Source: Saliniradius amylolyticus
GTDB lineage: Bacteria > Pseudomonadota > Gammaproteobacteria > Enterobacterales > Alteromonadaceae
Reading direction: 5' to 3'
Assembly: GCF_003143555.1 (NCBI RefSeq)
Contig: NZ_CP029347.1
Location: forward strand, 1,550,001 to 1,614,000
DNA: 64,000 nucleotides
The notes under the pieces: generated by a model
Database searches by the model: none
What the model was told of the DNA's origin: nothing
The model's input: the letters and a program-made list of their open reading frames with translations, nothing else
Shown here: positions 3,690 through 61,134 of the stretch, piece by piece
Layout: each line of letters starts with the position of its first letter
Numbering within the stretch: position 1 is the stretch's first letter
Program-made: the position numbers and the translations under genes

Positions 3690-3690
3690 T

Positions 3691-4279: not shown

Positions 4280-4288
4280 GGGGTCCTC

Positions 4289-28839: not shown

Positions 28840-29544
28840 TTACCGCAGCTCCAAGATCTCATTCACCCAGTCAGGCACCAATTCCGAGGCTCGTCCCCGG
28901 CGTTTTTCCTTAAAATCGCTATCGCTGGACTCCAGGTTTAACTCAAGGGTATGTGCGCCATTACGGTTGGCCTCAGCAACCAGCCCTGCGGCGGGATAGA
29001 CGGTGCCAGAGGTACCAATAGCCACAAAAATATCCGCTTGCCAGAGCGCTTCATAGATTTCGTCCATGTACAGTGGCATCTCACCAAACCAGACGATATG
29101 GGGCCGCATTGAGCTTGGTGGCTCACAGCACCGACAGTGGTTTGCGCGATCCAGCTCTCCCTTCAGAAGCATCAGTTTGTCGGTACGGCAGCAACGGGCC
29201 TTGAGCAACTCTCCGTGCATGGGAAGCAATCGTTTGCTGCCAGCGCGCTGATGCAGGTCATCCACATTCTGAGTAACAAGGGTAAAACGTCCACCCAGGT
29301 ACTGCTCCAGTTGCACCAGAGCGTGATGGGCCGCATTCGGTTGCACCTGACCGGACAGTAACGCCTGGCGTCGCAAGTTATAGAAGCGGTACACCAGATC
29401 GGGATTACGGGCAAAGGCTTCGGGGGTTGCCACCTCTTCGACCCGGTGCTCTTCCCACAAGCCGTTATTATCGCGGAACGTTTTCAGTCCTGACTCGGCG
29501 CTGATACCTGCACCGGTCAAAACCACAACATTAGGTTTGCTCAT
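28840..29544 (-). CDS. cobB: NAD-dependent protein deacylase, sirtuin (CobB)
   Basis: A 234-aa sirtuin from ATG 29544. Motifs: [21 protein letters not shown] (NAD binding), [12 protein letters not shown], catalytic His in LPMHGEL, four zinc cysteines (ARCC and HCRCC) and VWFGE. CobB removes acetyl and succinyl groups from lysines and activates acetyl-CoA synthetase. Its start overlaps the end of the nagR gene by 14 bases, so it is translationally coupled to the GlcNAc repressor; GlcNAc breakdown releases acetate, giving a plausible link. Confidence 0.92.
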
Positions 29545-30574
29545 AGGGTTGTTGGGTAGATTCGCGGATGACCAGCTGAGGCTCAAAGTGGAAATGGCCA
29601 ATGCGGGTATCTTTCGCTCTCGTCCCCCGCTGGGCGGCGATATTATTAACCAACATGGAGGCTGCTTCCCGCGCGATGTCATTAGTAGGTTGCGCAGCTG
29701 TAGTCAGCTTGGGCCAGGTCTGGCGTGAGAAAGGGCTGTCCTCAAAGCCTGCAATCGCCAGTTGGACCGGCACATCCACCCCCAGCAAGCGGGCGGCAAA
29801 TAAGGCGCCCGCAGCTATTTCATCGTTACAGGCAAAAATTGCAGAGGGCGGATTGTCCAGCTGCAACAGTTGCTTCGCTCCCTGTACTCCGGTTTCGAAG
29901 GAATAACGCCCCTCATAAACATAACCAGGCTGAAAACGGATGTCATTGTCGGACAGTGCAGCCTTATAGCCATTTAAGCGTTCAGTCGTAGAGCGGTGAT
30001 CTTTATCACCACTGATAAAGGCGATCCGGGAATGTCCCTGACAGGCCAGATGTTGCGTAATGTTATAAGCCGCCTCATGGTCGTGCACATAGATGCTGGC
30101 GTAATTTTCTTTACTCTCAAATGAACCGGATATGATACGCACAAAGGGAATAGCCATCTCAGTCAGGCGCTCCAGTACGTGCGGCATCTCCGATAATGGC
30201 GGCGAGATCACCAATCCGGCCAATTGAGATTTGCGGACCATCGCTCCCAGTTCGTCACAGATATTTGCAGCACTGGCGTCACAGGGATGGATCACCAGTT
30301 CATAGCCTTGCTCACGGCATTCATCCAAAATACCGTTTTGCATCCCAATTACGTAATAGGCATTTGGGTTATCGTATACGTAACCGATAGTGTAAGAGCG
30401 GGTCCCCGCCAAATTACGCGCGGCCTTGTTGGGCTCATATCCTAACTTTTCAATAGCTTGGGTAACGCGTTTAACCGTTTCATCCTTAACGGAGTTTTCC
30501 TTGTTAATAACCCGGGAAACGGTCTTGATGGAAACGCCGGCTTCATGAGCGACGTCCTTTATGGTTGCTTTCAT
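29531..30574 (-). CDS. nagR: LacI-family repressor of the GlcNAc locus (NagR-type)
   Basis: A 347-aa LacI/GalR regulator starting at ATG 30574. The N-terminal HTH ([24 protein letters not shown]) and hinge are followed by a periplasmic-binding-protein-like effector domain. Four copies of a LacI-type palindrome TGACAACGYTGTCA lie upstream of the divergent TonB receptor, the hex/sulfotransferase pair and nagK. NagR of this class binds such sites and releases them on GlcNAc-6-P in Shewanella and relatives (family knowledge). The first gene of an operon with cobB and lysE. Confidence 0.85.
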
Positions 30575-30741
30575 TAATTTTTCCACCGCGATGAATAAAG
30601 GATAAATAACATGAATCCCCCAACTAAATCCAGCCAAGTCATTGAGCTTACGTACTTCGGCAGGAACAGCGAGCCCCGGCCCTGTAATTTTTTTGTAAAC
30701 GCCAGGTTGCAGAGGTAAATATAATGGTGTAAGTTGTGATT

Positions 30742-30759
30742 CATGACAACGCTGTCATG
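30742..30759. promoter_or_regulatory. NagR operator 1 (CATGACAACGCTGTCATG)
   Basis: Extended palindrome in the divergent nagR / TonB-receptor region, 168 bases from the nagR start. Same core as operators 2-4. Confidence 0.75.
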
Positions 30760-30807: not shown

Positions 30808-30823
30808 ATGACAACGCTGTCAG
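30808..30823. promoter_or_regulatory. NagR operator 2 (core TGACAACGCTGTCA)
   Basis: Core at 30809-30822, 29 bases before the TonB-dependent receptor ATG and 65 bases after operator 1. Position suggests direct repression of the receptor promoter or its leader; two sites could allow looping. Confidence 0.8.
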
Positions 30824-30850: not shown

Positions 30851-33463
30851 ATGAAACAACTCAATAAAATAACTCGAAGCTTGAAACTGGCATTGATGGT
30901 GGGTTCCACCTTAAGTGCTCAGCAAGTCTTGGCTCAACAGGAAGATAACAACGCTCAGAACAATAGTGCTGATGATGTGGAAGTTATCCAGGTCAGTGGT
31001 ATTCGGGCATCCCAGGCCAAGAATCTTAATCAAAAACGCTTTTCTGACTCCATTGTGGACGCCATTACCGCAGAGGACATTGGCAAGTTCCCTGACAAGA
31101 ACGTTGCCGAATCCTTGCAAAGGATTCCGGGAGTTACCATTCAGCGCCAGTTTGGTGAAGGGGCTGCGGTTTCTATTCGTGGTGTAGGTAATGAGCTAAC
31201 CAAGACTACCCTAAATGGTCAAAACGTTGCCTCTACCGGTTGGTTTGTTCTGGAACCGGCAAAACGAAGCTTTAACTATGAACTACTCCCTTCTGAACTG
31301 GTTGGGGATCTGGAAGTTTATAAGAGTTCACAGGCGGACATCGCCGAAGGTGGTGTCGGGGGTACGGTTATTGTTAATACCCGTAAGCCGCTGGATCTCG
31401 ATCCTAATACCGTTTATGCGTCGCTCGAAGGCTCCTACCAAAGTGACTCTGAAGAAACTGATCCTCAGCTTTCCGGCCTTTACAGCTGGAAAAATGACGA
31501 TGGCAACTTTGGCGTATTAGTGAGTGCCGTCGCTCAGAAGCGCAACCTGGCTCGCCAGGGGAACGAGGCGTTCTGGCAATGGGGCGCAGGCCCTGTAGGC
31601 TTTGAACAAGAGCGTGAGCGTAGTGCCTTTACCACGGCAGTCCAGTATTTGCCTACCGACAACCTTGAGTTGGTAGTTAACTATATGGACATGCAAATGG
31701 AGGCTGATAACACCAACTACGCATTATGGTTAACTCAGGCTGATACCACCTGGGGTGATACCAGTGCCACCGAGGAGTTTTTGGGTTCCGGGGACAACAT
31801 CACACCGGTAAAAGGTCCCATTGCAAACGCTTATTATCAGGCTCGTCCTCGTGAAGCGACCATGAATTCTGAAGTGTTTGATGTGGAAGCGAACTATACC
31901 GGTGACGGGTATGAGCTGCATCTTCAGGCTGGTAAAACAACCTCCGATGGTGGTACCGATTTTGAAATGGTCGTAGACGATGCCTTCTTCCCTGCGTCTG
32001 TGGTGAACAATGGAACGTATGACTTTACCAATGGTAACCAACAGTGGATGTTTGACAGCATTGAAAGCGCAAATGGCGCGGTCAGCGATATCTCGGATTA
32101 CGATCCTGGGCTGTTAGCCATGGGTACTGGCCCTAATTTCAACCGTACTCCCAAAACCGATGAAGAGACCTATTTCCAGGGTGATATTGAGTTTAATGTG
32201 GATTACGGCCCCATCTACGCCATCAAGACCGGTGCCAAGTTTGTCGACCACGAGAGTACCAGTCTGCGTTTTGAGTACACACAGACAGACGGCTTTGATA
32301 ACACCTTCGCAACATCAGAGTATGGTCAGGGTCTGGTAGACGTTGGCGTTGAGGATCAGTCCATTTTAGGACTGAATGTGGATGCGGTGAAAGATTGGGC
32401 CAAGGCGAGTATCACGGGTCAGGTTGAAGATCTTGGTGCTCACAGTGAAATCCAGGAAGACAACTTCGCCGCCTATGTGATGGCCAAATATCAAGGCGAC
32501 ATGATCCGCGGTAACTTTGGCTTGCGCTATGTTACCACCGATGCGACGTCAACCTTCTATGTGGATGGTCAGCGTACTAACGAGAAAGCGGATTACTCCC
32601 AAGTATTACCAAGCTTTAACATGGCGATGGACTTGGCCGATGATGTGATTCTGCGCTTCTCTGCATCACGAGCCATGGCGCGCCCACAATACATTGATAT
32701 GTATACTAACCCGGACGTGCGCGGCACTAACGACGATTTGCCCAACAACCAAATGTGGATCAAAGGTAACGTCGGCCTGCTGCCCTTTATCTCCGACCAG
32801 TTTGATTTGGGCATAGAGTGGTACTTTAATGATTCTTCTCTGTTGTCTGCGGGTTTATTCCAAAAAGACGTAAAGAACTTTGTTAATTTCAGCGAATACA
32901 GTGCCCCCGCTAGCGAGATTCCGTTCGACTTAACCGGTGACGAGGCCGCCAATGGCTGGACCGTTCAGGAGAAAGACAACGGTAAGACCGCTAAAGTCAG
33001 AGGCCTGGAACTTCAGTATCAACAAGATTTTGGTAACGGGTTTGGCTCAATTCTGAACTATACCTACACCGACACGGATACCGATAATGACACCTTCGTT
33101 GATGGCAACGGTGTTCTGAGTGACAGCTCACCTCATGTTGTGAACGCCAGCGCTTACTATGAAAATGATTCGTTCCAAGTACGAGTCTCATACAACTGGC
33201 GGGATGAATATATGATTCGTGAAACCGGTTCTTACGGTAACCGTCTGCACGATGACTTCGGTGTTCTTGACCTTAGCGCCACCTACCACGTCACTGACAA
33301 TGTGGATGTGAAGCTGGATGTGAATAACCTGACTGAAGAACATGCTAAGCAATTCGGTAACAACGCAGTGCCAACCTTCTACAGTGGCTTCCAGGATGGA
33401 TTCCCGTTGTATGAGTACGTTCTGGCCCGTCGTATTACCGCTGGCGTGTCCGTTCGCTTCTAA
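30851..33463 (+). CDS. TonB-dependent receptor for chito-oligosaccharide/GlcNAc uptake
   Basis: An 870-aa outer-membrane protein with a signal peptide (ending AQQVLAQ), a plug domain (DIGKFPDKNVAESLQRIPGVTIQR, GNELTKTTLNGQNVAS) and a 22-strand-type barrel ending in an aromatic residue (VSVRF). This FPDKNVAESLQRIPGV subfamily serves carbohydrates in Alteromonadales, Xanthomonads and Caulobacter. It is flanked by two NagR operators, so the substrate is probably chitin oligosaccharides. A terminator separates it from the SapC gene. Confidence 0.9.
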   Translation: MKQLNKITRSLKLALMVGSTLSAQQVLAQQEDNNAQNNSADDVEVIQVSGIRASQAKNLNQKRFSDSIVDAITAEDIGKFPDKNVAESLQRIPGVTIQRQFGEGAAVSIRGVGNELTKTTLNGQNVASTGWFVLEPAKRSFNYELLPSELVGDLEVYKSSQADIAEGGVGGTVIVNTRKPLDLDPNTVYASLEGSYQSDSEETDPQLSGLYSWKNDDGNFGVLVSAVAQKRNLARQGNEAFWQWGAGPVGFEQERERSAFTTAVQYLPTDNLELVVNYMDMQMEADNTNYALWLTQADTTWGDTSATEEFLGSGDNITPVKGPIANAYYQARPREATMNSEVFDVEANYTGDGYELHLQAGKTTSDGGTDFEMVVDDAFFPASVVNNGTYDFTNGNQQWMFDSIESANGAVSDISDYDPGLLAMGTGPNFNRTPKTDEETYFQGDIEFNVDYGPIYAIKTGAKFVDHESTSLRFEYTQTDGFDNTFATSEYGQGLVDVGVEDQSILGLNVDAVKDWAKASITGQVEDLGAHSEIQEDNFAAYVMAKYQGDMIRGNFGLRYVTTDATSTFYVDGQRTNEKADYSQVLPSFNMAMDLADDVILRFSASRAMARPQYIDMYTNPDVRGTNDDLPNNQMWIKGNVGLLPFISDQFDLGIEWYFNDSSLLSAGLFQKDVKNFVNFSEYSAPASEIPFDLTGDEAANGWTVQEKDNGKTAKVRGLELQYQQDFGNGFGSILNYTYTDTDTDNDTFVDGNGVLSDSSPHVVNASAYYENDSFQVRVSYNWRDEYMIRETGSYGNRLHDDFGVLDLSATYHVTDNVDVKLDVNNLTEEHAKQFGNNAVPTFYSGFQDGFPLYEYVLARRITAGVSVRF

Positions 33464-33494: not shown

Positions 33495-33519
33495 AAAAGG
33501 GGGCTTGCCCCCCTTTTTT
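33495..33519 (+). terminator. Terminator after the TonB-dependent receptor
   Basis: Stem GGGGGC / GCCCCC with TT loop, A-run before and T6 after. Likely partial, letting some transcription reach the SapC and halogenase-like genes while keeping receptor mRNA in excess. Confidence 0.8.
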
Positions 33520-33566: not shown

Positions 33567-34280
33567 ATGACAGCATCCATGACTCCTCTGACTCCCGAAC
33601 AGCATGGCCACTTGAAAGTAGTGGCACAGGTCACCCCCAGCGATTATTGTGGCGAGCAAGCCATTCCCGTCACAGCCCAGGAGTTTGCAGCCGTGGCGAG
33701 CCAATGGCCCGTGGTTTTTTTAAAACACGGTCAGACCGGTGACTTTCAAGCCGTTGCCCTGATGGGGCTGAACCCAGGGCAGAATCTGTATTGTCAGAAT
33801 AATGACTGGTCCCTGCCCTACATGCCTCAGGCAATGCGCCATCGTCCCTTTGCCGTCACCCGCGAAACCCCGGACAGTGAGCAACTTATCATCTGCATTG
33901 ATGAATCCCATCCCAAGGTCAGCGCACATCAAGGTGAGGCTTTATTTGACAGCCAGGGTGAGCAGACGCCGTTTCTAAAACAACGAGCACAGAGTTTGGT
34001 GGACTACCTCCATCAAATAGATGCCACTCGGTGGTTGGTAAACTTTTTCAAACAACATGATCTGCTAATAACCCAGGAATTACGAGTTAATGATAAAGAG
34101 CAGAGCACTAAGCCTATTGCAGGTTTGTACATGGTGGATGAACAAAAGCTCAAACAATTAGACGATGAGGTTGTGAACGAGCTACGCCGACGCGGTTTTC
34201 TCGGTGCTATCTATAGCCACTTAACTTCATTGCACCAGATCCAGCGGCTGACTCACGACTTTATCCAATACAACCGCTAA
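33567..34280 (+). CDS. SapC family protein
   Basis: A 237-aa soluble protein starting after AGGATAAGAAC. The SapC hallmark LYCQNNDWSLPYMPQAMRHRPF lies near residues 70-92, with PVVFLKHG before it. SapC was first named from a Campylobacter S-layer locus, but in Alteromonadales, Xanthomonads and Caulobacter it sits beside TonB-dependent receptors and halogenase-like genes in sugar loci. Role unknown. It ends three bases before the first halogenase-like gene, forming a three-gene set. Confidence 0.85.
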   Translation: MTASMTPLTPEQHGHLKVVAQVTPSDYCGEQAIPVTAQEFAAVASQWPVVFLKHGQTGDFQAVALMGLNPGQNLYCQNNDWSLPYMPQAMRHRPFAVTRETPDSEQLIICIDESHPKVSAHQGEALFDSQGEQTPFLKQRAQSLVDYLHQIDATRWLVNFFKQHDLLITQELRVNDKEQSTKPIAGLYMVDEQKLKQLDDEVVNELRRRGFLGAIYSHLTSLHQIQRLTHDFIQYNR

Positions 34281-34283
34281 ACT

Positions 34284-35837
34284 ATGAGCCCGATTCATAA
34301 TATCGTAGTCCTCGGTGGTGGAACCGCAGGCTGGTTGGCCGCGAATCATTTAGCTAAGGCTCTCAATTGTCGGGACTCCGATGAAATCAGTGTCACCCTG
34401 GTTGAATCGCCGGATGTGCCCACCATTGGTGTGGGCGAAGGTACGGTGCCACACATTCGCCATACCCTAAAGTATCTGGGCATCTCAGAAACTGATGTGT
34501 TAAGACATTGCCAGGCCACGTTAAAGCAGAGTATTCAGTTCATCAATTGGAATGACTCGCCGTCTCACCGTGGTAAACACAGTTATCATCACCTGTTTGA
34601 TTACCCGGATATGAGCCGAGGTGATCTCACCCCCTATTGGCTGCTATCCGAGACGAAAACACCTTATGCCGATTATGTCTCGGTACAGAGTCACCTTATC
34701 CATCAAGGCCTGGCGCCTAAAAGTATGATGCATCCGGAATACCAAGGTGTCACCGAGTATGCCTATCATATGGACGCTCTAAAGTTCAGTGAGTTACTGG
34801 CTTCACATGCCACCGAAAAGCTTGGCGTAAAGCGGGTATCGGGCCATGTGACTCAACCTCTACTGCACCCAAATGGCGACATTAAGGCCCTGCAGTTCAA
34901 AGACGGTAATACCCTCGAAGGTGACTTCTTTGTCGATGCCAGCGGCTTTAATGCCAGGTTGTTGTCCGACGCCTATCAAATCCCGCTCATAGATAAACGC
35001 CATGTTTTACTGGCCGATACCGCCCTGGCACTGCAAGTGCCCTACTCCCAGCCTGATGCCGCCATCCCGTGTTCAACATTGGCGACAGCCCAGGAACACG
35101 GTTGGATCTGGGATATAGGCCTGACTCAACGCCGGGGTGTCGGGTACGTATATTCGTCTGCTCATACCAGTGAACAACAGGCGGCAGACACCCTAAGTCA
35201 GTATTTGGTACAAAGCGGTAATGCCGCCGATCTTGATTACCGTCGTATCCCGATGCAAGTCGGCTACCGACAACAATTCTGGCATCGGAACTGCTGCGCC
35301 ATTGGTCTCTCACAAGGGTTTGTGGAGCCATTAGAGGCAACGGGTCTGTTGATGTTCGATCTTACAGCCCGAATGCTCGCGGACACCCTACCGGCGCGCC
35401 GCGACCAGTTAGCCCATGCAGCAAAACGTTATAATCAACATGTCTGTTATGCGTGGGAACGGGTCATTGACTTCATTAAGCTGCACTACTGTATTTCACG
35501 ACGGGATGACTCAGATTTTTGGCGGGATAACAGAGAACCAGCATCCATTCCTGAGCATTTATCGGACAAGCTGTATCGCTGGCGCTACCAGGTTCCCTCG
35601 GCCTACGACTTTGCACAGACAAACAGTATTTTCAATTTAGATAACTATCTTTATGTCCTATACGGCATGGAGTATCACACCGACATCAGCGCGGGAGCCT
35701 TTCGGTATGCTCATTCACAGCAGGCACGACAGCAGGCCCAGTTTCTTAAGCAAATGGCCGACCAACAAAGCAAGCAGCTGATGTCACACCGAAAATTTCT
35801 GGAGCTCGCCGGTCAGCACGGATTACAACGGATTTAG
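34284..35837 (+). CDS. Flavin-dependent tryptophan-halogenase-like protein 1
   Basis: A 517-aa FAD protein. GGGTAG (residues 11-16) binds FAD, followed by GVGEGT. The lysine that relays hypohalous acid in PrnA/RebH is kept (K81 in CQATLKQ), as is the essential Glu in FVEPLEATG. The WxWxIP signature is altered to WIWDIG, losing Pro. So the machinery seems present but the signature diverges. Embedded in the GlcNAc locus with SapC and a second paralogue; substrate unknown and probably not free tryptophan. Probably requires a flavin reductase encoded elsewhere. Confidence 0.85.
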   Translation: MSPIHNIVVLGGGTAGWLAANHLAKALNCRDSDEISVTLVESPDVPTIGVGEGTVPHIRHTLKYLGISETDVLRHCQATLKQSIQFINWNDSPSHRGKHSYHHLFDYPDMSRGDLTPYWLLSETKTPYADYVSVQSHLIHQGLAPKSMMHPEYQGVTEYAYHMDALKFSELLASHATEKLGVKRVSGHVTQPLLHPNGDIKALQFKDGNTLEGDFFVDASGFNARLLSDAYQIPLIDKRHVLLADTALALQVPYSQPDAAIPCSTLATAQEHGWIWDIGLTQRRGVGYVYSSAHTSEQQAADTLSQYLVQSGNAADLDYRRIPMQVGYRQQFWHRNCCAIGLSQGFVEPLEATGLLMFDLTARMLADTLPARRDQLAHAAKRYNQHVCYAWERVIDFIKLHYCISRRDDSDFWRDNREPASIPEHLSDKLYRWRYQVPSAYDFAQTNSIFNLDNYLYVLYGMEYHTDISAGAFRYAHSQQARQQAQFLKQMADQQSKQLMSHRKFLELAGQHGLQRI

Positions 35838-35842
35838 AGACT

Positions 35843-37360
35843 ATGACAACATCCAACACCCTCCCTGTAATTACTATCGTTGGCGGCGGCTCTGCCGGGT
35901 GGATGAGCGCCATTTATTTAAACCGCTATTTCAACAAAGATCACAAGCAATACCACATACGCCTGATTGAAAGCCCGGATGTGGGGATCATTGGCGTCGG
36001 TGAGGCAACAGTTCACAGCATCCGCTACTTTTTTGCCGCCATGGGGTTGAATGAAGCTGAGTTAATACGACAGTCCCAGGGTACGCTAAAATCCGGAATT
36101 TTATTTCGTAACTGGATGAAGCCTAAAGATGGGCGCACCCATGAGTACTTTCATCCTTTTGAGTCGAATTTCAGTGGGCCGGGTATTGATATTTCCTCGC
36201 TTTGGATGCAATCCAGTTCCCCCTTCCAGCGCTATGATGAGGCAGTTTGCACCAGTGCTCACCACATCCGGGATGGGTTGTGCGCCAAAGGTAAAAACTC
36301 TCGCCCCTATACCGGACTGGTCCCCTATGGCTATCATCTAGACGCCAACCTTATGGCACGTTATCTGCGTCAACAAGCGACCGCAGCGGGTGTCGAGCAC
36401 ATCGAAGCCCTGGTCGATGATGTGATCGTTGAAAATCATCGTATTCGGGCAGTACACACCGACCAGGGCACCTTCAGCGGCGATATTTTTATCGATTGTT
36501 CCGGCTTTAAGGGCCTGCTGATCAATCAACTGGAGCCGGACAACTGGCGCTCCTTTAAAGCGGAGCTTCCTTGTGACCGCGCCGTTGCTGTGCAGACCAA
36601 ATACGAAGAAGACACCGTGCCCAAGCCTTATACAGTAGCGACCGCTCTGTCTAATGGCTGGGCCTGGGAAATCGATTTAGTCAACCGACGGGGCAATGGC
36701 TATGTTTACGACAGCAACAGGCTGACACCTGAGCAAGCTGAAGCCGAGTTACTGCGCCATATAGACGTGACGAGTGACGATATTATCAAAACCAATCACT
36801 TAGCTATGCAGGTGGGATGCCGAAATAAGTTCTGGAGCGGTAACTGCATTGCCATCGGGTTGTCTGGCGGATTTATTGAGCCTCTGGAGTCCACCGGATT
36901 ACATGTGATTAACCTGGGTGTGCGCCTGCTGGCAAGCCACTTAAGTGGCTCTGAAGCTGAGTCTGTCGCCCAGGCTTACAATCAGGCCATGAATGGCATT
37001 TACGACGACCTCAAGCAATTCATTGTGCTGCACTACTGTCTAACCGACAGGGATGATACGCCCTTTTGGCAACATGCTCAGACTACCGCATCCGCATGCC
37101 CCGGCCTGGAGCGTAAGCTTGAGCTCTGGCAGCATAAGGTCTGTGAGTACTTTGATTTGGCGGGGGGCTACTCCAGCACTTTCACCGACGAAAACTATCG
37201 CTATGTGCTGTATGGGATGGAGCGCTCCCCTTCTCTGAGTTTACGCATTGATCCGGCAACCGCCGCGGCAACATTTGAACAATGCCAGTCACGTATCCAA
37301 ACGATGGCAGAACAGTTGCTACCGCATCATGATTATCTAGCCAGTATCCATCAGGCCTAA
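35843..37360 (+). CDS. Flavin-dependent tryptophan-halogenase-like protein 2
   Basis: A 505-aa paralogue of the preceding gene, five bases downstream. GGGSAG (residues 14-19) and GVGEAT are present. The catalytic lysine is kept (K83 in QGTLKSG) and so is Glu in FIEPLESTG. The WxWxIP signature reads WAWEID. Tandem, divergent halogenase-like genes in one sugar-induced operon suggest two steps or a heterodimer acting on a shared substrate; this is inference. The 3' end overlaps the convergent sulfotransferase gene by 24 bases. Confidence 0.85.
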   Translation: MTTSNTLPVITIVGGGSAGWMSAIYLNRYFNKDHKQYHIRLIESPDVGIIGVGEATVHSIRYFFAAMGLNEAELIRQSQGTLKSGILFRNWMKPKDGRTHEYFHPFESNFSGPGIDISSLWMQSSSPFQRYDEAVCTSAHHIRDGLCAKGKNSRPYTGLVPYGYHLDANLMARYLRQQATAAGVEHIEALVDDVIVENHRIRAVHTDQGTFSGDIFIDCSGFKGLLINQLEPDNWRSFKAELPCDRAVAVQTKYEEDTVPKPYTVATALSNGWAWEIDLVNRRGNGYVYDSNRLTPEQAEAELLRHIDVTSDDIIKTNHLAMQVGCRNKFWSGNCIAIGLSGGFIEPLESTGLHVINLGVRLLASHLSGSEAESVAQAYNQAMNGIYDDLKQFIVLHYCLTDRDDTPFWQHAQTTASACPGLERKLELWQHKVCEYFDLAGGYSSTFTDENYRYVLYGMERSPSLSLRIDPATAAATFEQCQSRIQTMAEQLLPHHDYLASIHQA

Positions 37361-38854
37361 TTGGTTATAGATAGGTTCAAGTTGCGATTCAAAGCGACGC
37401 CAGTTTTCTATGCCAGTGGCATAAAGAGGCTGGCGCACCTGCTCGCTGCTTAAAGTGGCCATCGGCCGGCCTGCAAGGTGAAAGCCGCGCCAGTCAAAGT
37501 CTGATTCACAACCAATAAACTCAGAGAGTTCCTGAAGTACAGCATCTGTCTGTGTTACCAACCGCTCATAGTCGAGGTGGTAGATCCTTCCGGGTAACTG
37601 TAAGTCCCACAGGGTCATAAGCTTTCTGTAACTCTGATAATACTGGTGCATCCGGGTAAAGTCGTAGGTGTATTCATGCCCATTGGCAAATAGCTGTCGA
37701 AAGCACGCCCAGTAGAGGTCCCGGGGCTGACGCCGACAGTGGATAATTCGGGCGTTAGGTAATGCCCGGGCTATGATGCCAAGGGATTTAAAATTATGGG
37801 GCATCTTATCCGTTATAAATTCATTATTGCCTGCTTGTTGTCGCTCAAGGTAGTTATCGCCAATCGCTTGCCACTGCCTAGCGTCAAGTTGGTTTACCCA
37901 CTGATATCCGAACTTTGAAATGCCTTCATGCTGCAAAACGTGCTGAGTCGCCTGAGCCAGAGCGAGTGATTCGCCTCTTGGCAGTATCTGTTTGTGAGTC
38001 GCCAGTATCGATTCCAGTAAAGAAGTACCACTGCGGGGTAGCCCACAAATGAAAATTGGTCCCTTAGCCTTCTGTTGCCGTTCGGGCGACTTGATGTCTA
38101 CTGTTCCGGCACTGCAAAATACCGAATGCAAAAGCGAGAGTTCACGCTGCTCTGAGTGCGCTGCTCGTGATAACCTATCCCTCATTTTTTGAGCGCCGAC
38201 CTGATACCATTGAAAACTGTCGGCGCGCTTATCTGGGTAAGCTTCCAGGGCTTTGCCAATGGCATAAGCCAAAGGAGCGGGGTTGCGTGATTCTGGCAGC
38301 TCCTCAAAGCGCTGAATCATCGCCTCGATATCAGTCATCGCAAGCGTTCTGACCAAGGGAGCCCGGGCCCAATAACTGGCCACTTTGTCTGGGGCGAGTT
38401 TGATGGCCTGATTGAGTGCTGTAAGCGCTTCGTTTCGGCGACCCAGCTCGGATAACAACAAGCCGTATTGATGGTAGAGTGATGCCTGCGCATCCCCTTT
38501 TGATATGAGCTCGTGCATCAGTTTACAAGCTTCCTCGTGCTGCCCGTAGTAACGCTGAGCCGTTGTGATTGCCATTACTACCGCGCTCTGACGATCACCC
38601 AACGCCCAACGCTCATGGGCATCGTTAAGCAACGCCCTGAAATCACCCAGTTCAAATCTGGCTTTGAATAAATAACCACAGATCTTCTTTGCTAACGGCT
38701 GCCCGGGATCGATCTGTGCGGCAACATACGCCAGTTGATTCCAGTTTCCCTTTGACTGCCAGGTAAATAAACGCTGAATGAGTTGCTCTTCATTCAGAGA
38801 CACGACGTCCTGGTTGGGACTGAGCCTGACGTGGATTAATGACCGTTTATCCAT
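37337..38854 (-). CDS. TPR-containing sulfotransferase family protein
   Basis: A 505-aa protein from ATG 38854 (a TTG nine codons upstream is possible). Residues about 20-215 hold helical TPR-like repeats (YHQYGLLLSELGRRNEALTALNQAIKLAP). Residues about 235-490 are a sulfotransferase domain: PIFICGLPRSGTSLLESIL binds the PAPS 5'-phosphosulfate, and a later RQPRDLYWACF segment fits the 3'-phosphate motif. It is divergent from hex with a NagR palindrome between, so likely induced with the chitin genes. Target unknown. Confidence 0.8.
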   Translation of the reverse strand: MDKRSLIHVRLSPNQDVVSLNEEQLIQRLFTWQSKGNWNQLAYVAAQIDPGQPLAKKICGYLFKARFELGDFRALLNDAHERWALGDRQSAVVMAITTAQRYYGQHEEACKLMHELISKGDAQASLYHQYGLLLSELGRRNEALTALNQAIKLAPDKVASYWARAPLVRTLAMTDIEAMIQRFEELPESRNPAPLAYAIGKALEAYPDKRADSFQWYQVGAQKMRDRLSRAAHSEQRELSLLHSVFCSAGTVDIKSPERQQKAKGPIFICGLPRSGTSLLESILATHKQILPRGESLALAQATQHVLQHEGISKFGYQWVNQLDARQWQAIGDNYLERQQAGNNEFITDKMPHNFKSLGIIARALPNARIIHCRRQPRDLYWACFRQLFANGHEYTYDFTRMHQYYQSYRKLMTLWDLQLPGRIYHLDYERLVTQTDAVLQELSEFIGCESDFDWRGFHLAGRPMATLSSEQVRQPLYATGIENWRRFESQLEPIYNQLGLMDTG

Positions 38855-38905
38855 AGGTTCATTCCGACAAAGTATTTGCAACCATAATAACCTTTAGTTA
38901 ACATT

Positions 38906-38923
38906 AATGACAACGTTGTCATT
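38906..38923. promoter_or_regulatory. NagR operator 3 (AATGACAACGTTGTCATT)
   Basis: A perfect 18-bp palindrome between the divergent sulfotransferase (start 38854) and hexosaminidase (start 38940) genes, 17 bases before the latter. It can control both. Confidence 0.85.
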
Positions 38924-38939
38924 TGCAGCAGAGATCTTT

Positions 38940-41507
38940 ATGAAAACCATCGTTTATACAACTGCTCTTATCGGTGCTATGAGCATATCTGGCTGTGCAC
39001 CACAAAACGAGGGGCTGTCTCAACAGCAGCTGCATCGTTTTGCCCAGCAGTTAGACCTGACCTTCAGGGTTAATGATAACCTGTCTGCAAAAGACTGTTC
39101 TGAAACACTCGGAGGTGGCCAATGCTTTTCAGGCGAACTGGTCTTACGGTCACCCTTGCCTTTTGAAAGCAACAACTGGGCTATTTATTTTAGCAATACC
39201 AAGCCGATTCAGTCGGACAGCAGTGATGCGTTCGACATTACCCATATCAATGGCGACTTGCATGCACTTACGCCCACTAAAAATTTCACCGGTTTTGAAG
39301 CTGATGCAAGCCTGGAGATTCCGTTTAAAGGAACCTTCTGGTCGATCAGTCAAACTGACGCCACACCGAATTATTTTATCGTCAGTGGTGAGCTCGAACC
39401 TGAAATAATCCAGTCTACTCAGGAACAAGTGAACACCTCGACCGAAGAAGCCTACCTGCCCTTTGTAGCCGAATTTAAACGACCCGAGCAATATAAGCGC
39501 AGTGAGCAGGACAACAGCCCGTTGGCCGATGCTGAGCACCTCTATCAGTACTACCAGAACCTGCAGGCAAGTACCGCTGCCGAGTCACAGCCGCGTATTA
39601 TTCCTAAACCTGCGCAGAGCAACTGGACCGGGGATACTATGAGCCTGGACAAGGGCTTACAGCTACCGGCGGATTTTTTAAGCTCAGCGCTGGGTAAGCT
39701 GTTCAGTCTTGAATCATTGCCATTGAGTCAGACGGGCTTGTTGGTGCAACTGAATCAGGATGACGATATTGCAAAGCAAGGCTATCAATTGGATATCGGT
39801 GATACGATCCAACTGAGGTATCGGGACACTGCCGGACAGTTTTATGGCTTAATCACCCTGGCTGGTCTATACGATCCAGACTCCAACAGCCTACCCAAGG
39901 GCCAAATACAGGATCAGCCCCGCTATGACTTCCGCGGCGTTCATCTGGATGTAGCGCGTAATTTTCATAGTAAGACCTTCATTGAAAAACTGCTCGATCA
40001 GATGGCTTTGCTAAAGCTCAATAAACTGCATTTGCACCTGGCTGATGATGAGGGCTGGCGCCTGGAGATCCCCGGCCTTCCCGAACTGACCGACATTGGT
40101 GGCTATCGCTGCTTTGATCTTACTGAACGTCGCTGTTTACAACCCCAGCTTGGCAGCGGCCCTTTTAAAGACACCTCCGTCAATGGTTATCTGAGTGTTA
40201 CTGAATATCAGCAGCTATTGCAATATGCGGCCGAGCGACACATTGAGATTATCCCATCGCTCGATATGCCCGGTCATTCCCGGGCTGCTATTAAGTCGAT
40301 GGAGGTCAGGTACCAGCGCCTGATGGCGGAAGGCAAAACTGAGCAGGCCCAACGCTATCGCTTGGTAGAGCCAGAAGATAAGACGGTCTATTCATCGGTG
40401 CAATACTACAATGACAACACATTGAATCCTTGCATTGACAGCACCTATCGCTTTGTTGAGAAGGTTCTCAGTGAGGTACAGGCCATGCACCAAGCTGTTG
40501 GTGTACCTATTCAGCGGTATCACATCGGAGCCGATGAAACCGAGGGAGCCTGGGTGGACTCACCGGCCTGTCAGGCTCTGATGCAACAACAAGGCATTAA
40601 TGAGGCGGATAAACTCACCGGCTACTTTATCGAGAAGGTGACCGCAACTGTGGCTGGCATGGGGGTTACTGCCGGTGCCTGGAGTGACGGCCTGAGTCAT
40701 GTAGACGCACAAAAATTGCCAGAACAAATTCACGCCAATGTATGGGGAACTCTGTACTGGGATGGAGCAAAGACCGCTCATCAGATGGCCAATACCGGCT
40801 GGGATGTCGTGTTGAGTATCCCCGATGTACTTTACTTTGACTTCCCTTACAGTGCCCACCCAGACGAACCAGGCTATTACTGGGCCACTCGCAGTACTGA
40901 CAGTTTTCAGGTATTCCAGTTTATGCCGGATAACCTGCCGGTCCACGCCGAAATTTGGCGCGACCGAATGGGCAATGCATTTCGTGTAGAGGACAATACC
41001 CCACTGCAAGACGACGCCCGAGCTTATGGCATTCAGGGACAGCTTTGGAGCGAGACGCTCAGACTGGACTCTCAGGTCAGCTACATGTTGTTTCCTCGCC
41101 TCCATGCTCTGGCAGAACGTGCCTGGCATAAAGCCGATTGGGAGCTGGCCTATACAGCCGGACAAAGCTATGGTCCGGATACAAATTATTTTGATCAGGC
41201 CCATCGTCAACAACAACTTGCTGACTGGCAGGGGTTTGCGGGCACACTGGTCACCGGATATTTACCTTTGCTGACCCAACAGGAATTGATGTTCCGCTTA
41301 CCTCCCCCCGGGGCCGTGATAGAGCATGGCGTATTGAGTATCGCCCTGCCCTGGCCCCATTTGGAAGCAGAGTACCGAACTCACAATGGTAAGTGGCAAA
41401 CCTATAAGGCGCCTGTCGAGACTGATACGCCGATCAATGTACGTACACGTTTACCGGGAACGGATAAGGTAAGTCGAGCGTTCTTCTTGAATAATGATTC
41501 CAAATAG
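38940..41507 (+). CDS. hex: Beta-N-acetylhexosaminidase, GH20, lipoprotein
   Basis: An 855-aa enzyme. The start at ATG 38940 gives a lipoprotein signal with lipobox ISGC (Cys18). A chitobiase-type N-terminal carbohydrate-binding domain (residues about 30-190) and a GH20b domain precede the GH20 barrel. The catalytic pair is D532-E533 in HIGADETEG. It cleaves terminal GlcNAc from chito-oligosaccharides in the periplasm or at the membrane, feeding NagP. Under a NagR palindrome. Confidence 0.93.
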   Translation: MKTIVYTTALIGAMSISGCAPQNEGLSQQQLHRFAQQLDLTFRVNDNLSAKDCSETLGGGQCFSGELVLRSPLPFESNNWAIYFSNTKPIQSDSSDAFDITHINGDLHALTPTKNFTGFEADASLEIPFKGTFWSISQTDATPNYFIVSGELEPEIIQSTQEQVNTSTEEAYLPFVAEFKRPEQYKRSEQDNSPLADAEHLYQYYQNLQASTAAESQPRIIPKPAQSNWTGDTMSLDKGLQLPADFLSSALGKLFSLESLPLSQTGLLVQLNQDDDIAKQGYQLDIGDTIQLRYRDTAGQFYGLITLAGLYDPDSNSLPKGQIQDQPRYDFRGVHLDVARNFHSKTFIEKLLDQMALLKLNKLHLHLADDEGWRLEIPGLPELTDIGGYRCFDLTERRCLQPQLGSGPFKDTSVNGYLSVTEYQQLLQYAAERHIEIIPSLDMPGHSRAAIKSMEVRYQRLMAEGKTEQAQRYRLVEPEDKTVYSSVQYYNDNTLNPCIDSTYRFVEKVLSEVQAMHQAVGVPIQRYHIGADETEGAWVDSPACQALMQQQGINEADKLTGYFIEKVTATVAGMGVTAGAWSDGLSHVDAQKLPEQIHANVWGTLYWDGAKTAHQMANTGWDVVLSIPDVLYFDFPYSAHPDEPGYYWATRSTDSFQVFQFMPDNLPVHAEIWRDRMGNAFRVEDNTPLQDDARAYGIQGQLWSETLRLDSQVSYMLFPRLHALAERAWHKADWELAYTAGQSYGPDTNYFDQAHRQQQLADWQGFAGTLVTGYLPLLTQQELMFRLPPPGAVIEHGVLSIALPWPHLEAEYRTHNGKWQTYKAPVETDTPINVRTRLPGTDKVSRAFFLNNDSK

Positions 41508-41545: not shown

Positions 41546-41561
41546 ATGACAACGCTGTCAT
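41546..41561. promoter_or_regulatory. NagR operator 4 (core TGACAACGCTGTCA)
   Basis: Core at 41547-41560, 57 bases before the nagK ATG. Controls the catabolic operon nagK to nagX. Confidence 0.85.
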
Positions 41562-41617: not shown

Positions 41618-42514
41618 ATGACAACGCAACAGCCTCTCTATTACATGGGCATCGATGGTGGCGGCAGTAAGTGCCGAGCCCTGCTCACCGATGCCGAGGG
41701 CAAGGAACTGGGAACCGGACAGTCAGGTCCCGCTAACCCCAATCAGGGGCTGGATCAGTCACTGAACTCGATTCTCGATTGCGCGACTCAGGCCATCGAT
41801 AACGCAGGCTTACCCGCAAGTACCATCGATAAAGTTTATGCAGGAATGGGGCTGGCTGGGTTGAATCTACCCAAATACTATCAATGGATGGCCAACTGGG
41901 ATCATCCGTTTGCCCGCCTTAACATCAGCACGGATTTACATATCGCCTGTTTAGGCGCTCACGGGGGGGGGGACGGAGCCGTCATCATTACCGGCACGGG
42001 ATCGTGCGGCATGGTCAATGTCAAAGGTCAACGGCGTCAATTCGGTGGTCATGGCTTCACCGTCGGCGATCAGGGTAGCGGAGCCTGGTTAGGTATCAAT
42101 GCCATTCGCCAAAGCTTGCAAGCCTTAGACGGCCTGTTGCCCAAAACCGACTTAGTGGAGCGGGTACTGGATCTCACACAATGCCAAACCGCTCGGGAAC
42201 TGGCTCAGACCATGGCAGGCCAAAGTCCGGCCAAATATGCCAAACTGGCTCCAGTCGTCTTTGAACAGGCTAATGTGAAAGATGAGTTAGCCACTGAACT
42301 GGTGATCAAGGGTGCCGACTACATCAACCGTCTGGCCCGTCGCTTATTTGGCTACAACCCACCGCGCTTTTCCATGATTGGTGGCTTGGCTCCGATTATT
42401 GCTCCCTGGCTGGATGAAGATGTAAAGGAGCGACTCCAGCCCAGTCTGCACAGTCCGGAAATGGGTGCTGTGCTATTTGCTCAACAAGACAATCCAAAGC
42501 GAGATACCTTATGA
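41618..42514 (+). CDS. nagK: N-acetylglucosamine kinase, BadF/BadG ATPase family (NagK)
   Basis: A 298-aa ASKHA-fold kinase. Phosphate-1 loop GIDGGGSKCRALL near residue 13, phosphate-2 segment IITGTGSCGM, and a later GGLAPIIAPW adenosine loop. It makes GlcNAc-6-P from imported GlcNAc, the step expected when uptake is by a permease and not a PTS. Gene overlaps nagB-II by 4 bases. A run of ten G bases (41963-41972) in the coding sequence is unusual and may be slippage-prone. Confidence 0.9.
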   Translation: MTTQQPLYYMGIDGGGSKCRALLTDAEGKELGTGQSGPANPNQGLDQSLNSILDCATQAIDNAGLPASTIDKVYAGMGLAGLNLPKYYQWMANWDHPFARLNISTDLHIACLGAHGGGDGAVIITGTGSCGMVNVKGQRRQFGGHGFTVGDQGSGAWLGINAIRQSLQALDGLLPKTDLVERVLDLTQCQTARELAQTMAGQSPAKYAKLAPVVFEQANVKDELATELVIKGADYINRLARRLFGYNPPRFSMIGGLAPIIAPWLDEDVKERLQPSLHSPEMGAVLFAQQDNPKRDTL

Positions 42515-43506
42515 CCAGTATTATGTCCAAAGAAGCGGCAGAAGCACCTGTCCGCGTTAAAGAACAACTGACACAGAATCAAGCTGCCTGCGAACGACTA
42601 GGACACCAGATTCGACTTTTCGAGCCTGCTTTTGTATTGATGGTGGGACGGGGCTCGTCGGATCATGCGGGGGTGTTTGCCAAGTATTTGATTGAAGTCG
42701 AAACCGGCGTTCCTGTCACCGCATCAGCCCCATCGGTGGCGAGTATTTACGGCCAGAACCTGAAGTTAGACAAGGCACTGGTACTAGTGATATCCCAATC
42801 TGGCCGCAGTCCGGACATTCTGGCTCAGGCCAAGTCAGCCAAAGCCTCAGGCGCATTGGTCGTCGCTTTGGTTAACGACGAAAGCTCACCACTGGCGGAA
42901 ATGGTTGATCATGTACTGCCGCTGAATGCGGGCGAAGAAAAAGCCGTTGCCGCCACCAAGAGCTACCTGTGCACTCTCAGCGCCCTCCTGCAGATGGTAG
43001 CGTACTGGAAACAGGATAAATCACTGATCGAGTCTTTAGATCATCTTCCCGAAGGCTTACAAAAAGCCGTCGATGCGCCCGCGCAATTGGACCGGGTGTT
43101 CATAAAACCGCTGGCCCACTGTGTCGTTCTGGGGCGCAGCTTCGGTTATGCCATCGCCCGGGAGCTGGCGTTAAAGTTAAAAGAGGTGGTGGCTGTCCAC
43201 GCCGAAGCCTTCTCCAGTGCCGAGTTTTTGCATGGCCCGGTGACGTTGGTGCAAAAACAGCTTGCCGTAGTGGATATTGAAGTCACCGATGAATCGGTAG
43301 AGGCTCACCGAGAGCAAATTAAAGAGATCAAACACCGCGGGGCCAAGCTATGCCATCTTTCCAACCCTGCACCGGACCTACATCCACGCCTGGCGCCACT
43401 GGCGATCATGCAGCGTTTTTATCTGGATATTGAAAATGTTGCTCAGCAAATGGGACTGGACCCGGATAACCCAGAGGGCCTTAAAAAAGTCACTCAAACT
43501 CTGTAG
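42511..43506 (+). CDS. nagB-II: Glucosamine-6-phosphate deaminase, SIS type (NagB-II)
   Basis: A 331-aa protein with two SIS domains. ISQSGRSPDIL and GEEKAVAATKSYLCTL form the first sugar-phosphate site; LGRSFGYAIARELALKLKEV and SAEFLHGPVTL form the second, as in GlmS-type isomerase domains without the glutaminase part. NagB-II converts GlcN-6-P to fructose-6-P and ammonia in Shewanella and Alteromonas, replacing the classical NagB. It lies between nagK and nagA. Confidence 0.9.
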   Translation: MTSIMSKEAAEAPVRVKEQLTQNQAACERLGHQIRLFEPAFVLMVGRGSSDHAGVFAKYLIEVETGVPVTASAPSVASIYGQNLKLDKALVLVISQSGRSPDILAQAKSAKASGALVVALVNDESSPLAEMVDHVLPLNAGEEKAVAATKSYLCTLSALLQMVAYWKQDKSLIESLDHLPEGLQKAVDAPAQLDRVFIKPLAHCVVLGRSFGYAIARELALKLKEVVAVHAEAFSSAEFLHGPVTLVQKQLAVVDIEVTDESVEAHREQIKEIKHRGAKLCHLSNPAPDLHPRLAPLAIMQRFYLDIENVAQQMGLDPDNPEGLKKVTQTL

Positions 43507-43514
43507 AGGCACCT

Positions 43515-44639
43515 ATGGCTATTACCTATCTTGCAGAGCGTTTCTTTGACGGTGACACTCTGCATACCAATACGACGGTCACCATTGACCAGGGCAAAGT
43601 TCTGGCGATCGGCAATCACACTGACAGCCCCACGCCACTGGCGGGAACGTTGGTGCCTGGTTTCGTAGACGTGCAGGTGAATGGCGGCGGCGGTGTGCTG
43701 TTTAACAGCAATACCAGTGCCGATGCTCTTAACCGCATTCGTCACGCTCACAGCCAGTTTGGCACAACAGCCATGATGCCGACGTTGATTACAGACAGTC
43801 TGGATACGATCACTCGTGCCGCCGATGCGATGGCCGAGGCCATCGCACAAGACAGCCCCGGTATTTTGGGGATCCATTTTGAAGGCCCCCACCTTAGCGA
43901 GCCTAAGAAAGGCATTCACCGCAGTCAGTTTATTCGCCCCATTACCGACGATGAGCTTAAGCAGTTTACCCGTCAGGACCTGGGCAAGGTCATGCTCACG
44001 GTAGCGCCGGAAAATGTCCCCGCCGATGTGATCGCCGATCTGGTGCGTCAGGGTGTCAGGGTCTGCCTAGGACATACCAACGCCGATTGTGATACCACCT
44101 TAAAAGCACTGGAAGCCGGTGCCAACGGTTTTACCCACCTTCACAATGCCATGTCCCCCATGACCAGTCGGGAACCGGGCGTAGTCGGCGCAGCACTGGC
44201 TGACGACAACAGCTACTGCGGCCTGATCGTGGATAACTACCATGTGGACAAGGTTACTGTTAAGGCGTCCATAAAAGCGAAAGGTATCGATCAGGTTATG
44301 TTGGTTACCGATGCGATGGCCCATGTGGGCTCGGACATTGATGATCTGGCCTTTTTCGACACCCGCATCATCCGCACTGGCGATAAGCTCACTATTCCGG
44401 CGGGCAACCTGGCCGGCTCTGCCCTGGATATGGCCTCGGCGGTACGTAACACCTGCCAGAGCGGTCTGTCATTAGAGCAAGCATTGATTATGGCGTCTCG
44501 CACTCCCGCTCGCTATTTGGGACTGGCGGATCAACTCGGTAAGCTCCAGCCCGGTTATCAGGCCGACATGGTGCTGCTGGACGATACACTTAACGCGACT
44601 CAGACCTGGATCCAGGGCCAAGTCGTGACTCAACAATAA
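43515..44639 (+). CDS. nagA: N-acetylglucosamine-6-phosphate deacetylase (NagA)
   Basis: A 374-aa amidohydrolase. Family motifs present: PGFVDVQVNGGGG, GIHFEGPHL, LGHTNAD, HLHNAMS and the catalytic Asp in MLVTDAMAHVG. It removes acetate from GlcNAc-6-P. Starts nine bases after nagB-II with AGAGG upstream. Acetate released here links to the cobB gene co-transcribed with nagR (inference). Confidence 0.93.
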   Translation: MAITYLAERFFDGDTLHTNTTVTIDQGKVLAIGNHTDSPTPLAGTLVPGFVDVQVNGGGGVLFNSNTSADALNRIRHAHSQFGTTAMMPTLITDSLDTITRAADAMAEAIAQDSPGILGIHFEGPHLSEPKKGIHRSQFIRPITDDELKQFTRQDLGKVMLTVAPENVPADVIADLVRQGVRVCLGHTNADCDTTLKALEAGANGFTHLHNAMSPMTSREPGVVGAALADDNSYCGLIVDNYHVDKVTVKASIKAKGIDQVMLVTDAMAHVGSDIDDLAFFDTRIIRTGDKLTIPAGNLAGSALDMASAVRNTCQSGLSLEQALIMASRTPARYLGLADQLGKLQPGYQADMVLLDDTLNATQTWIQGQVVTQQ

Positions 44640-50786: not shown

Positions 50787-50796
50787 GACATCTCCT

Positions 50797-51534: not shown

Positions 51535-51567
51535 TGCGTCTCACCCTGTAAAAAATTGGACTACAAG

Positions 51568-51577
51568 TATACCAAAT
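51568..51577. promoter_or_regulatory. Half-site TATACCAAAT, possible GntR operator
   Basis: TATACCAA at 51568-51575 recurs at 51609-51616 in the same divergent region; spacing is 41 bases, about four helical turns. Confidence 0.4.
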
Positions 51578-51608
51578 CAGGCATTAAGGTCGCCCCTGAT
51601 AAAAATAA

Positions 51609-51625
51609 TATACCAATTGGTTTGA
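51609..51625. promoter_or_regulatory. Palindrome around ACCAATTGGT, possible GntR operator
   Basis: TATACCAATTGGTTTGA contains the 10-bp palindrome ACCAATTGGT (51612-51621). It lies between the divergent GntR start (51534) and the solute-binding-protein start (51687). Confidence 0.5.
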
Positions 51626-51686
51626 TTTGCAAAAAAAGATTGGCTAAATTGTTAATCAGTTGTCAGTCATTCTCATGGGGTTAACT

Positions 51687-61132: not shown

Positions 61133-61134
61133 CC

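Follow-up and report, generated by a model that had tools for sequence, protein, structure and literature searches.

In Saliniradius amylolyticus, the genes of a TonB-dependent receptor, a SapC protein and two halogenase-like flavoproteins, Hal1 and Hal2, make up a single unit within a NagR-type GlcNAc locus. The locus lies in the window analysed here, a stretch of 64,000 nucleotides. Proteobacteria commonly have halogenase-family genes next to those of TonB receptors, and the module of SapC, flavoenzyme and receptor is solid as a genomic unit. We tentatively regard SapC, Hal1 and Hal2 as the GlcNAc-locus version of a receptor-dedicated module, which may modify side chains in the cytoplasm before export.

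Organisation of the locus

A sequence-only reading had placed SapC and two halogenase-like flavoenzymes inside a GlcNAc locus. The three genes are open frames at exactly the coordinates that it gave, and their products match Pfam families PF07277 and, twice, PF04820 (Table 1). The GlcNAc assignment is borne out by the NCBIfam equivalogs NagK_SO3507, NagB-II_SO3506 and nagA, together with a LacI-type regulator, an MFS permease, a NagX-like protein and a GH20 enzyme. The receptor scores 609.9 bits against TIGR01782, for which the NCBIfam cut-off is 310. The regulator gene is divergent from the receptor gene.

Table 1 Features of the GlcNAc locus (positions in the window).
Feature	Position	Strand	Evidence
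NagR-like LacI-family regulator	29531..30637	-	PF00356 and PF13377; homologues 53-61% identical in GlcNAc loci L121-L123
NagR-type operator 1, 5' of receptor	30744..30757	+	exact TGACAACGCTGTCA
NagR-type operator 2, 5' of receptor	30809..30822	+	exact TGACAACGCTGTCA
TonB-dependent receptor, Xanthomonas/Caulobacter type; candidate substrate protein	30851..33463	+	PF00593 1.9e-36, PF07715 1.6e-17; TIGR01782 8.6e-183
Terminator/attenuator-like hairpin, receptor-enzyme gap	33499..33512	+	GGGGGCTTGCCCCC then CTTTTTT
SapC protein, 237 aa	33567..34280	+	PF07277 1.7e-67
Hal1, type-A flavoprotein	34284..35837	+	PF04820 6.7e-126
Hal2, type-C flavoprotein	35843..37360	+	PF04820 1.8e-122
TPR-sulfotransferase	37337..38881	-	PF13469 2.3e-38; PAPS-loop PRSGTS
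NagR-type operator 5' of GH20	38908..38921	+	exact TGACAACGTTGTCA
GH20 beta-N-acetylhexosaminidase	38907..41507	+	PF00728 2.2e-93
NagR-type operator 5' of nagK	41547..41560	+	exact match
NagK, GlcNAc kinase	41618..42514	+	NF046058 3.8e-119, above cut-off
NagB-II, glucosamine-6-phosphate deaminase	42511..43506	+	NF046059 1.4e-163, above cut-off
NagA, GlcNAc-6-phosphate deacetylase	43515..44639	+	TIGR00221 7e-84, above cut-off
NagP-like MFS permease	44662..45996	+	PF07690; 50-61% identity in syntenic loci
NagX-like membrane protein	45984..47075	+	PF07786; homologues in L127 and L135

Four exact TGACARCGYTGTCA palindromes were found, two 5' of the receptor gene and one each 5' of the GH20 gene and nagK; four matches were reached in 0 of 100 shuffles. 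These predicted NagR-type operators precede transcription units, and the same sites are predicted in syntenic loci such as L122-L124 and L127. The longest GH20 frame begins within its operator, and translation more probably starts from the in-frame ATG at 38940. The TPR-sulfotransferase gene lies tail-to-tail with Hal2, with an overlap of 24 bp. It is an accessory gene, present in few related loci, and it occupies the same position in the Thalassotalea locus L122. The scanned genes, which cover part of the open reading frames of the window, include no flavin reductase, and we count this against the function proposed below.

Active sites of Hal1 and Hal2

Hal1 and Hal2 score 421 and 410 bits, respectively, against PF04820 (Pfam gathering score 21), and both keep the GxGxxG FAD-binding motif, as GGGTAG at 11 and GGGSAG at 14. 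As the earlier reading had it, both also keep the catalytic Lys and Glu, which are K81 and E351 in Hal1 (EPLEATG at 348) and K83 and E349 in Hal2 (EPLESTG at 346), and which we take to correspond to K79 and E346 of PrnA. Both residues occur without exception in the 89 type-A and 6 type-C sequences. Also kept are the His and Phe (YHHLF, YFHPF) that presumably flank the indole, as in the PrnA and PyrH structures of tryptophan halogenases. The same reading was right that the WxWxIP signature is replaced, by WIWDIG in Hal1 (274-279) and by WAWEID in Hal2 (273-278); W-x-W and the Ile are kept in both enzymes and the Pro is lost. The motif Fx.Px.Sx.G is intact in Hal2 (FIEPLESTG), while Hal1 (FVEPLEATG) has A352 in place of the Ser. 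This loss had not been remarked on before, nor had a His in Hal2 that replaces the Pro of the GVGEATxP loop (GVGEATVH, 51-58).

Judged from the sequences compared, WIWDIG and WAWEID are conserved signatures of two subfamilies. WxWDI is present in 89 of 89 type-A enzymes, a set partly selected by motif, and in 9 of 9 enzymes of an independent set. The latter is the unbiased test of the type-A motif, since the query of the genome scan was a type-A alignment and its patterns include WxWDIG, which biases the motif counts in L120-L199. The motif Ser is Ala in 80 of the 89 type-A sequences, and WAW(E/Q)ID together with the GVGEATVH loop is found in all five GlcNAc-type second enzymes. Because the variants are strict subfamily signatures, they give no sign of an inactive enzyme, and motif decay was rejected. 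The label halogenase-like is apt and halogenase would overreach; halogenation is a candidate activity of Hal1 and Hal2.

SapC and the module across genomes

SapC scores 227.7 bits against PF07277, for which the gathering score is 28.9. Its fold is confidently predicted (AlphaFold model, mean pLDDT 94.8), and the model has no PDB relative, with no Foldseek match at E<=0.001 in the PDB or the viral library. SapC was rejected as a known enzyme, there being no sequence or fold match in the PDB and no match in the viral library. SapC has no obvious signal peptide, and none is visible on the module proteins.

At least 585 type-A relatives were found in one scan. Partners were counted within 6 kb of type A at 78 loci from Alpha-, Beta- and Gammaproteobacteria. 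A TonB receptor was present at 64 of these loci and SapC at 60, followed by a second PF04820 gene (30), Cupin_8 (29) and DUF6445 (19). In six genomes, 31 of 36 strong PF04820 genes also accompany a TonB receptor. The constant company of TonB receptors in sugar loci, as first proposed from the window, is thus upheld, and the association is fixed across many kinds of sugar locus. The catabolic cargo varies between loci and the receptor stays, which makes the receptor, and not the sugar, the constant partner. Moreover, single genomes hold several receptor loci with one module set each, as expected for a local substrate. The S. amylolyticus genome has nine PF04820 genes and four SapC genes. Receptor and type-A distances are correlated (Mantel r=0.62), which partly reflects shared species history.

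The wider module includes Cupin_8 (JmjC-like) and DUF6445 oxygenases and, occasionally, the TPR-sulfotransferase. DUF6445 is identified here as a 2-oxoglutarate/Fe(II) oxygenase, in which H133xD135 and H225 are invariant and R243 is near-invariant, and which Foldseek matches to OGFOD1 and collagen P3H1. Cupin_8/JmjC and 2OG-Fe oxygenases are families that often act on proteins. The presence of these oxygenases and of a sulfotransferase points to protein side-chain chemistry and not to sugar. Cluster C6, which has no Pfam match, was dropped as a probable antisense frame of halogenase genes. The literature searched yielded no established function for the module, in agreement with the earlier reading.

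Receptor residue W293

W293 is the residue that best separates linked (n=81) from unlinked (n=20) receptors (80% vs 10%). It is near-invariant when linked, being present in 87 of 105 linked and 18 of 76 unlinked receptors, and it sits in a variable stretch (0.83 bits, compared with 2.4-3.3 before W293). W293 covaries with the Gly of WIWDIG (Fisher p=1.7e-5, confounded by clade). Under control for receptor phylogeny, its association with the module is gone (9 independent pairs, no signal, in a test of limited power), and Trp at this position is also found in some receptors from genomes without PF04820 halogenase-type genes. W293 as a proven target was therefore rejected, and it is kept as one candidate site of the proposed receptor modification.

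Proposed function and alternatives

We infer the substrate, the reaction, the role of SapC and the benefit as follows. GlcNAc catabolism would relieve NagR, the receptor would be made in quantity, and read-through past the hairpin would give less of SapC, Hal1 and Hal2. SapC would serve as adaptor or escort of the receptor in the cytoplasm, ahead of export and outer-membrane folding. The two flavoproteins, with O2 and with FADH2 from a reductase encoded elsewhere, would oxidise an aromatic side chain of the receptor, most likely a Trp. Halogenation of the residue would be likelier for Hal2, in which E-S-T-G is intact; for Hal1, which is without the WxWxIP proline and the motif Ser, hydroxylation would be a possible outcome. 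In related loci, the JmjC-like and DUF6445 2OG-Fe oxygenases would join. Through this mark the cell would adjust how firmly the ligand is held, the chemistry of the loops or protection against phage, bacteriocin or protease. The full generalisation, that every such sugar receptor has a Trp (or a residue next to it) halogenated or hydroxylated before export by its own set of 2OG-Fe and FADH2-dependent oxygenases, SapC being a new-fold adaptor, is unlikely as stated. Hairpins comparable with the one in the receptor-enzyme gap occur in 21 of 66 receptor-to-module gaps (0.7 expected) and in 1 of 144 inner gaps, and we count them for the receptor-module reading; hairpins 3' of outer-membrane protein genes are common in general. 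Also counted for this reading are the retained His and Phe of the two enzymes, the correlation of receptor and type-A distances, and the other setting of SapC, next to very large exported-type proteins.

Hal1 and Hal2 could instead halogenate or hydroxylate a free aromatic, either indole-like or carried on an imported sugar, and so make a signal, a defence compound or a receptor ligand, with co-expression of the receptor serving import or export. This is possible but rather doubtful. The known substrates of PF04820 enzymes are mainly small molecules, and the solved structures nearest to Hal2 are those of PyrH (2wet, 2wes and 2weu; E=1.6e-96), a free-Trp 5-halogenase. Furthermore, free indole-type compounds are converted in vitro by the related BrvH, at a low rate, and by the X. 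campestris halogenases (PMC5945002, PMC7336383), which we count against the receptor reading and which leaves room for a small aromatic substrate. However, the authors who described BrvH doubt that indole is its natural substrate, given the low activity, and its open substrate site could admit larger substrates. A free aromatic would also leave SapC and the 2OG oxygenases unexplained, the modules recur per receptor locus while the sugars differ, and the locus is without biosynthetic genes.

It is improbable that the modified protein is another partner, such as SapC itself, a TonB/ExbB component, a secreted hydrolase or a surface protein. SapC is linked to type A about as often as the receptor is (60 vs 64 of 78), and elsewhere it adjoins very large exported-type proteins and outer-membrane secretion components. 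The receptor is nevertheless kept without SapC in L125, L143, L148, L181 and L195, some of which are on short contigs, and a general TonB target would need no enzyme set per receptor.

It is decidedly improbable that Hal1, and perhaps Hal2, has ceased to halogenate with the change of WxWxIP and serves as a monooxygenase, as an oxidase that produces H2O2 or as a structural partner of the other flavoprotein. WxWxIP is proposed to keep the flavin away from the substrate and so prevent hydroxylation, but the same review leaves the role of the motif residues unsettled (PMC10696468). The Ser-to-Ala change of type A fits a loss of halogenation, while the invariant Lys and Glu would not be needed without it. 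A chitin sugar as the halogenation substrate was rejected on chemistry, as it has no electron-rich aromatic, and an antibiotic cluster, which the sequence-only reading had also discounted, was rejected as no biosynthetic genes are nearby.

Modification of the receptor is directly testable by mass spectrometry on one abundant outer-membrane protein. If the receptor is the substrate, an entire class of 'halogenases' would in fact modify proteins, receptor peptides would be the right substrates for enzymologists, and a new type of protein modification would be at hand in the enzymatic halogenation or hydroxylation of outer-membrane proteins.

Comparison with known systems

The locus shares nagK, nagB-II, nagP, nagX, a LacI-type regulator and a TonB receptor with the Shewanella-type NagR/NagP pathway, whose literature lists the receptor and the pathway genes (PMC2996990, PMC5343134); the terms halogenase and SapC are absent from the main text of PMC2996990. 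BrvH and the Xcc4156-type halogenases belong to the same PF04820 family as Hal1 and Hal2, and the BrvH gene likewise lies beside a second halogenase gene (PMC5945002, PMC7336383). These enzymes resemble the type-B partner of the module; type B is absent from the GlcNAc locus, which has types A and C. The WxWxIP region is present in BrvH, and in its place stand WxWDIG in type A and WAWxID in type C.

The solved structures nearest to Hal1 are 9lu2, 2pyx and 9ltb, all of which show WxWDI(G/A) in the alignments, and for which no established function was found. PyrH (2wet, 2weu) has the Lys, E-S-T-G and HPF in common with Hal2, but it has WMWTIP where Hal2 has WAWEID; Hal2 also differs by the His of its GVGEATVH loop, and the natural-product setting of PyrH is absent from the Hal2 locus.

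QhpG, LodB and GoxB are FAD proteins needed for the oxidation of Trp within a protein during tryptophylquinone maturation. QhpG, a halogenase-like FAD protein, acts in the cytoplasm, ahead of translocation, by dihydroxylating a peptidyl Trp (PMC7876137). Hal1 and Hal2 are below threshold for the three NCBIfam models, with scores for Hal1 of 59.8, 29.3 and 24.6 bits, respectively, against equivalog cut-offs of 240-400 bits. The GlcNAc locus has no quinone enzyme. The likeness to QhpG is taken as an analogy only, one that offers a precedent for Trp chemistry on a protein.

The GlcNAc locus

The sequence-only reading had placed SapC and two halogenase-like flavoenzymes (here called Hal1 and Hal2) in a GlcNAc locus. 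The three genes lie at the positions stated in that reading and belong to families PF07277 (SapC) and PF04820 (both enzymes). The observation was correct and understated; the module of SapC and PF04820 flavoenzymes accompanying a TonB receptor is real, conserved and under NagR-type operators. A TIGR01782-type TonB receptor precedes the three genes; the receptor-to-SapC gap is 103 bp and the gaps within the enzyme part are 3 and 5 bp. The NagR-type GlcNAc pathway is full, with a LacI-type regulator, GH20, NagK, NagB-II, NagA, an MFS permease and a NagX-like protein. The palindrome TGACARCGYTGTCA has four exact copies, two upstream of the receptor and the others upstream of GH20 and nagK. The neighbour of Hal2 in tail-to-tail orientation is a TPR-sulfotransferase that carries a PAPS loop. 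Elsewhere in the window, a sugar cluster looks like a mannoside/ManNAc pathway.

Features of the window
Feature	Position	Strand	Remarks
PM2-like (corticovirus-type) provirus or remnant	1-8031		left end
Packaging-ATPase-like frame	1185-1976		within PM2-like region
Coat protein P2 domains	2224-3054		PF18628, PF25513
Endolysin-like frame	7531-8031		within PM2-like region
TonB-dependent receptor	30851-33463	+	
G+C-rich hairpin with T run	33499-33512		receptor-to-SapC gap
SapC	33567-34280	+	
Hal1	34284-35837	+	
Hal2	35843-37360	+	
Protein with copper-amine-oxidase N-terminal-like domain	47228-48781		DUF3370 match; directly 3' of nag genes
Sugar cluster	50103-63243		NanE, GntR/UTRA regulator, ABC importer, ROK kinase, GH38 alpha-mannosidase, DUF4127, FAD_oxidored protein, PfkB kinase

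The receptor, SapC and both enzyme types are also found in four other loci, L120-L123 (Cellvibrionaceae MAG, Woeseiaceae MAG, Thalassotalea, Paraglaciecola). The nag genes are kept in L121-L123, operators are found in L122 and L123, and the sulfotransferase in L122. Identity to the window's proteins is 62-66% for the receptors of L121-L123 and 50-55% for the first enzymes of L120-L123. Since these counterparts are closer to the window's proteins than the paralogues in its own genome, the module is inherited as a unit.

Distribution and partners

The 3.2-Mb genome of S. amylolyticus has four SapC genes and nine PF04820 genes, eight of which lie within five TonB-receptor loci. By our count over six genomes, strong PF04820 genes number 36, and 31 of these are near such receptors. 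SapC and strong PF04820 genes co-occur above expectation (SapC in 7 of 12 PF04820 genomes, p=4e-4, among 274 sampled genomes of the same class). An alignment of type A, the Hal1 subfamily, was scanned against 84,980 species genomes and gave at least 585 relatives. Among the 78 scorable loci of the best 80, 64 have a receptor at ≤6 kb, 60 have SapC, 30 a second PF04820 gene, 29 Cupin_8 and 19 DUF6445 (L124, L126, L128, L158, L163 and others). Type-A loci occur in Alteromonadales, Xanthomonadales, Caulobacter, sphingomonads and Oxalobacteraceae, and their sugar genes vary (GH3, GH20, others). Orphan PF04820 genes with no nearby receptor are found in L014 (7452-8960), L241 and L242; one in L242 has WCWQIE.

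DUF6445 (PF20043), listed as unknown in Pfam, has a distal H besides an invariant HxD, and an R that is near-invariant. OGFOD1 and collagen prolyl-3-hydroxylase are among the 2OG-Fe oxygenases that its model (pLDDT 90.3) matches. This conserved HxD...H...R and the predicted fold identify DUF6445 as a 2OG-Fe(II) oxygenase.

The SapC model is confident (pLDDT 94.8), and its predicted fold had no match in the PDB or the viral library BFVD. A SapC set gathered irrespective of PF04820 includes about ten loci of the receptor/flavoenzyme kind. At least 12 loci of the set lie near open frames of more than 2,000 residues; some of these frames, from G+C-rich genomes, could be spurious. Two of the loci near such frames were checked, and they carry an efflux protein of the outer membrane and a secretion protein of the ShlB type. 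In L083, L085, L088, L090 and L093, SapC adjoins frames of 2,300-3,100 residues, one starting 'LEPLEPRFLLSADP', and is accompanied by outer-membrane secretion proteins. These giant-frame neighbourhoods are a second, receptor-free context of SapC. A lone SapC of S. amylolyticus (L019 8850-9626, at 2.63 Mb) has no adjacent receptor or flavoenzyme, and its neighbours look like mraZ/mraW/fts cell-division genes.

Enzyme types

The PF04820 enzymes of the module can be separated into three types. Type A, which includes Hal1, has W(I/V/L)WDI(G), F-x-E-P-L-E-A and invariant Lys and Glu; among solved structures, 9lu2, 2pyx and 9ltb are nearest to it. Type B is BrvH-like, with W(Q)W(R)IP and PLESTS. Type C, which includes Hal2, has WAW(E/Q/R)ID and PLESTG, with GVGEATVH too in the five GlcNAc loci, and is nearest to the structure of PyrH. 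The altered WxWxIP of types A and C is therefore a conserved feature. According to a review, this motif is proposed to shield the substrate site, so preventing hydroxylation, with the role of its single residues unclear (PMC10696468); thus, the sequence does not decide between halogenation and hydroxylation in these types. For at least one of them, halogenation is favoured by the invariant Lys and Glu. Because the WxWxIP of true halogenases was looked for and is lacking in Hal1 and Hal2, we do not claim that they belong to that group; its lack makes it less likely that they are halogenases but leaves untouched that they may work like one.

Proposed modification of the receptor

Trp at receptor position 293 (W293) separates best, across the whole receptor, those linked to the module from unlinked ones (80% versus 10%). 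In a set of 12 receptors, most of which share 25-30% identity with that of the window, it is the sole invariant Trp; the variable stretch that holds it is, judging from the strand pattern, probably extracellular. Among 40 genomes of one family, this Trp is present in every receptor that ranks as most similar to the linked set, while a close unlinked receptor has Tyr. Unlinked receptors with Trp at this position exist, some in genomes that lack strong PF04820 genes, and shared ancestry accounts for the association in a tree of 182 receptors. W293 was therefore dropped as evidence for modification and remains a candidate site. An unlinked receptor near the linked clade in S. amylolyticus (L282, 2.727-2.730 Mb) keeps a W293-type Trp (YNWFW) and is a possible target in trans.

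No signal peptide was visible on inspection of the starts of SapC, Hal1 and Hal2, so these proteins should act in the cytoplasm. The sugar itself lacks a ring open to halogenation by enzymes of this kind. 2OG-Fe oxygenases are among the partners, and the enzyme set of each receptor locus is its own. A hairpin is found in 21 of 66 receptor-to-enzyme gaps (0.7 expected) and in 1 of 144 inner gaps; behind the receptor, it would keep receptor output high and enzyme output low. Together with the precedent of QhpG, these points lead us to favour, tentatively, that the flavoenzymes modify the receptor before its export. A small aromatic molecule is a possible but less probable substrate. Modification of a protein other than the receptor is unlikely, and a role as a non-halogenating helper more unlikely still. 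Receptor modification, the likeliest function of the module, would, if true, mean that receptors mature in a new way.

The window's enzymes score weakly against models of QhpG, LodB and GoxB. QhpG resembles FAD halogenases and dihydroxylates an unmodified protein Trp in the cytoplasm, prior to translocation (PMC7876137), and it is a direct precedent for cytoplasmic modification of protein Trp before export.
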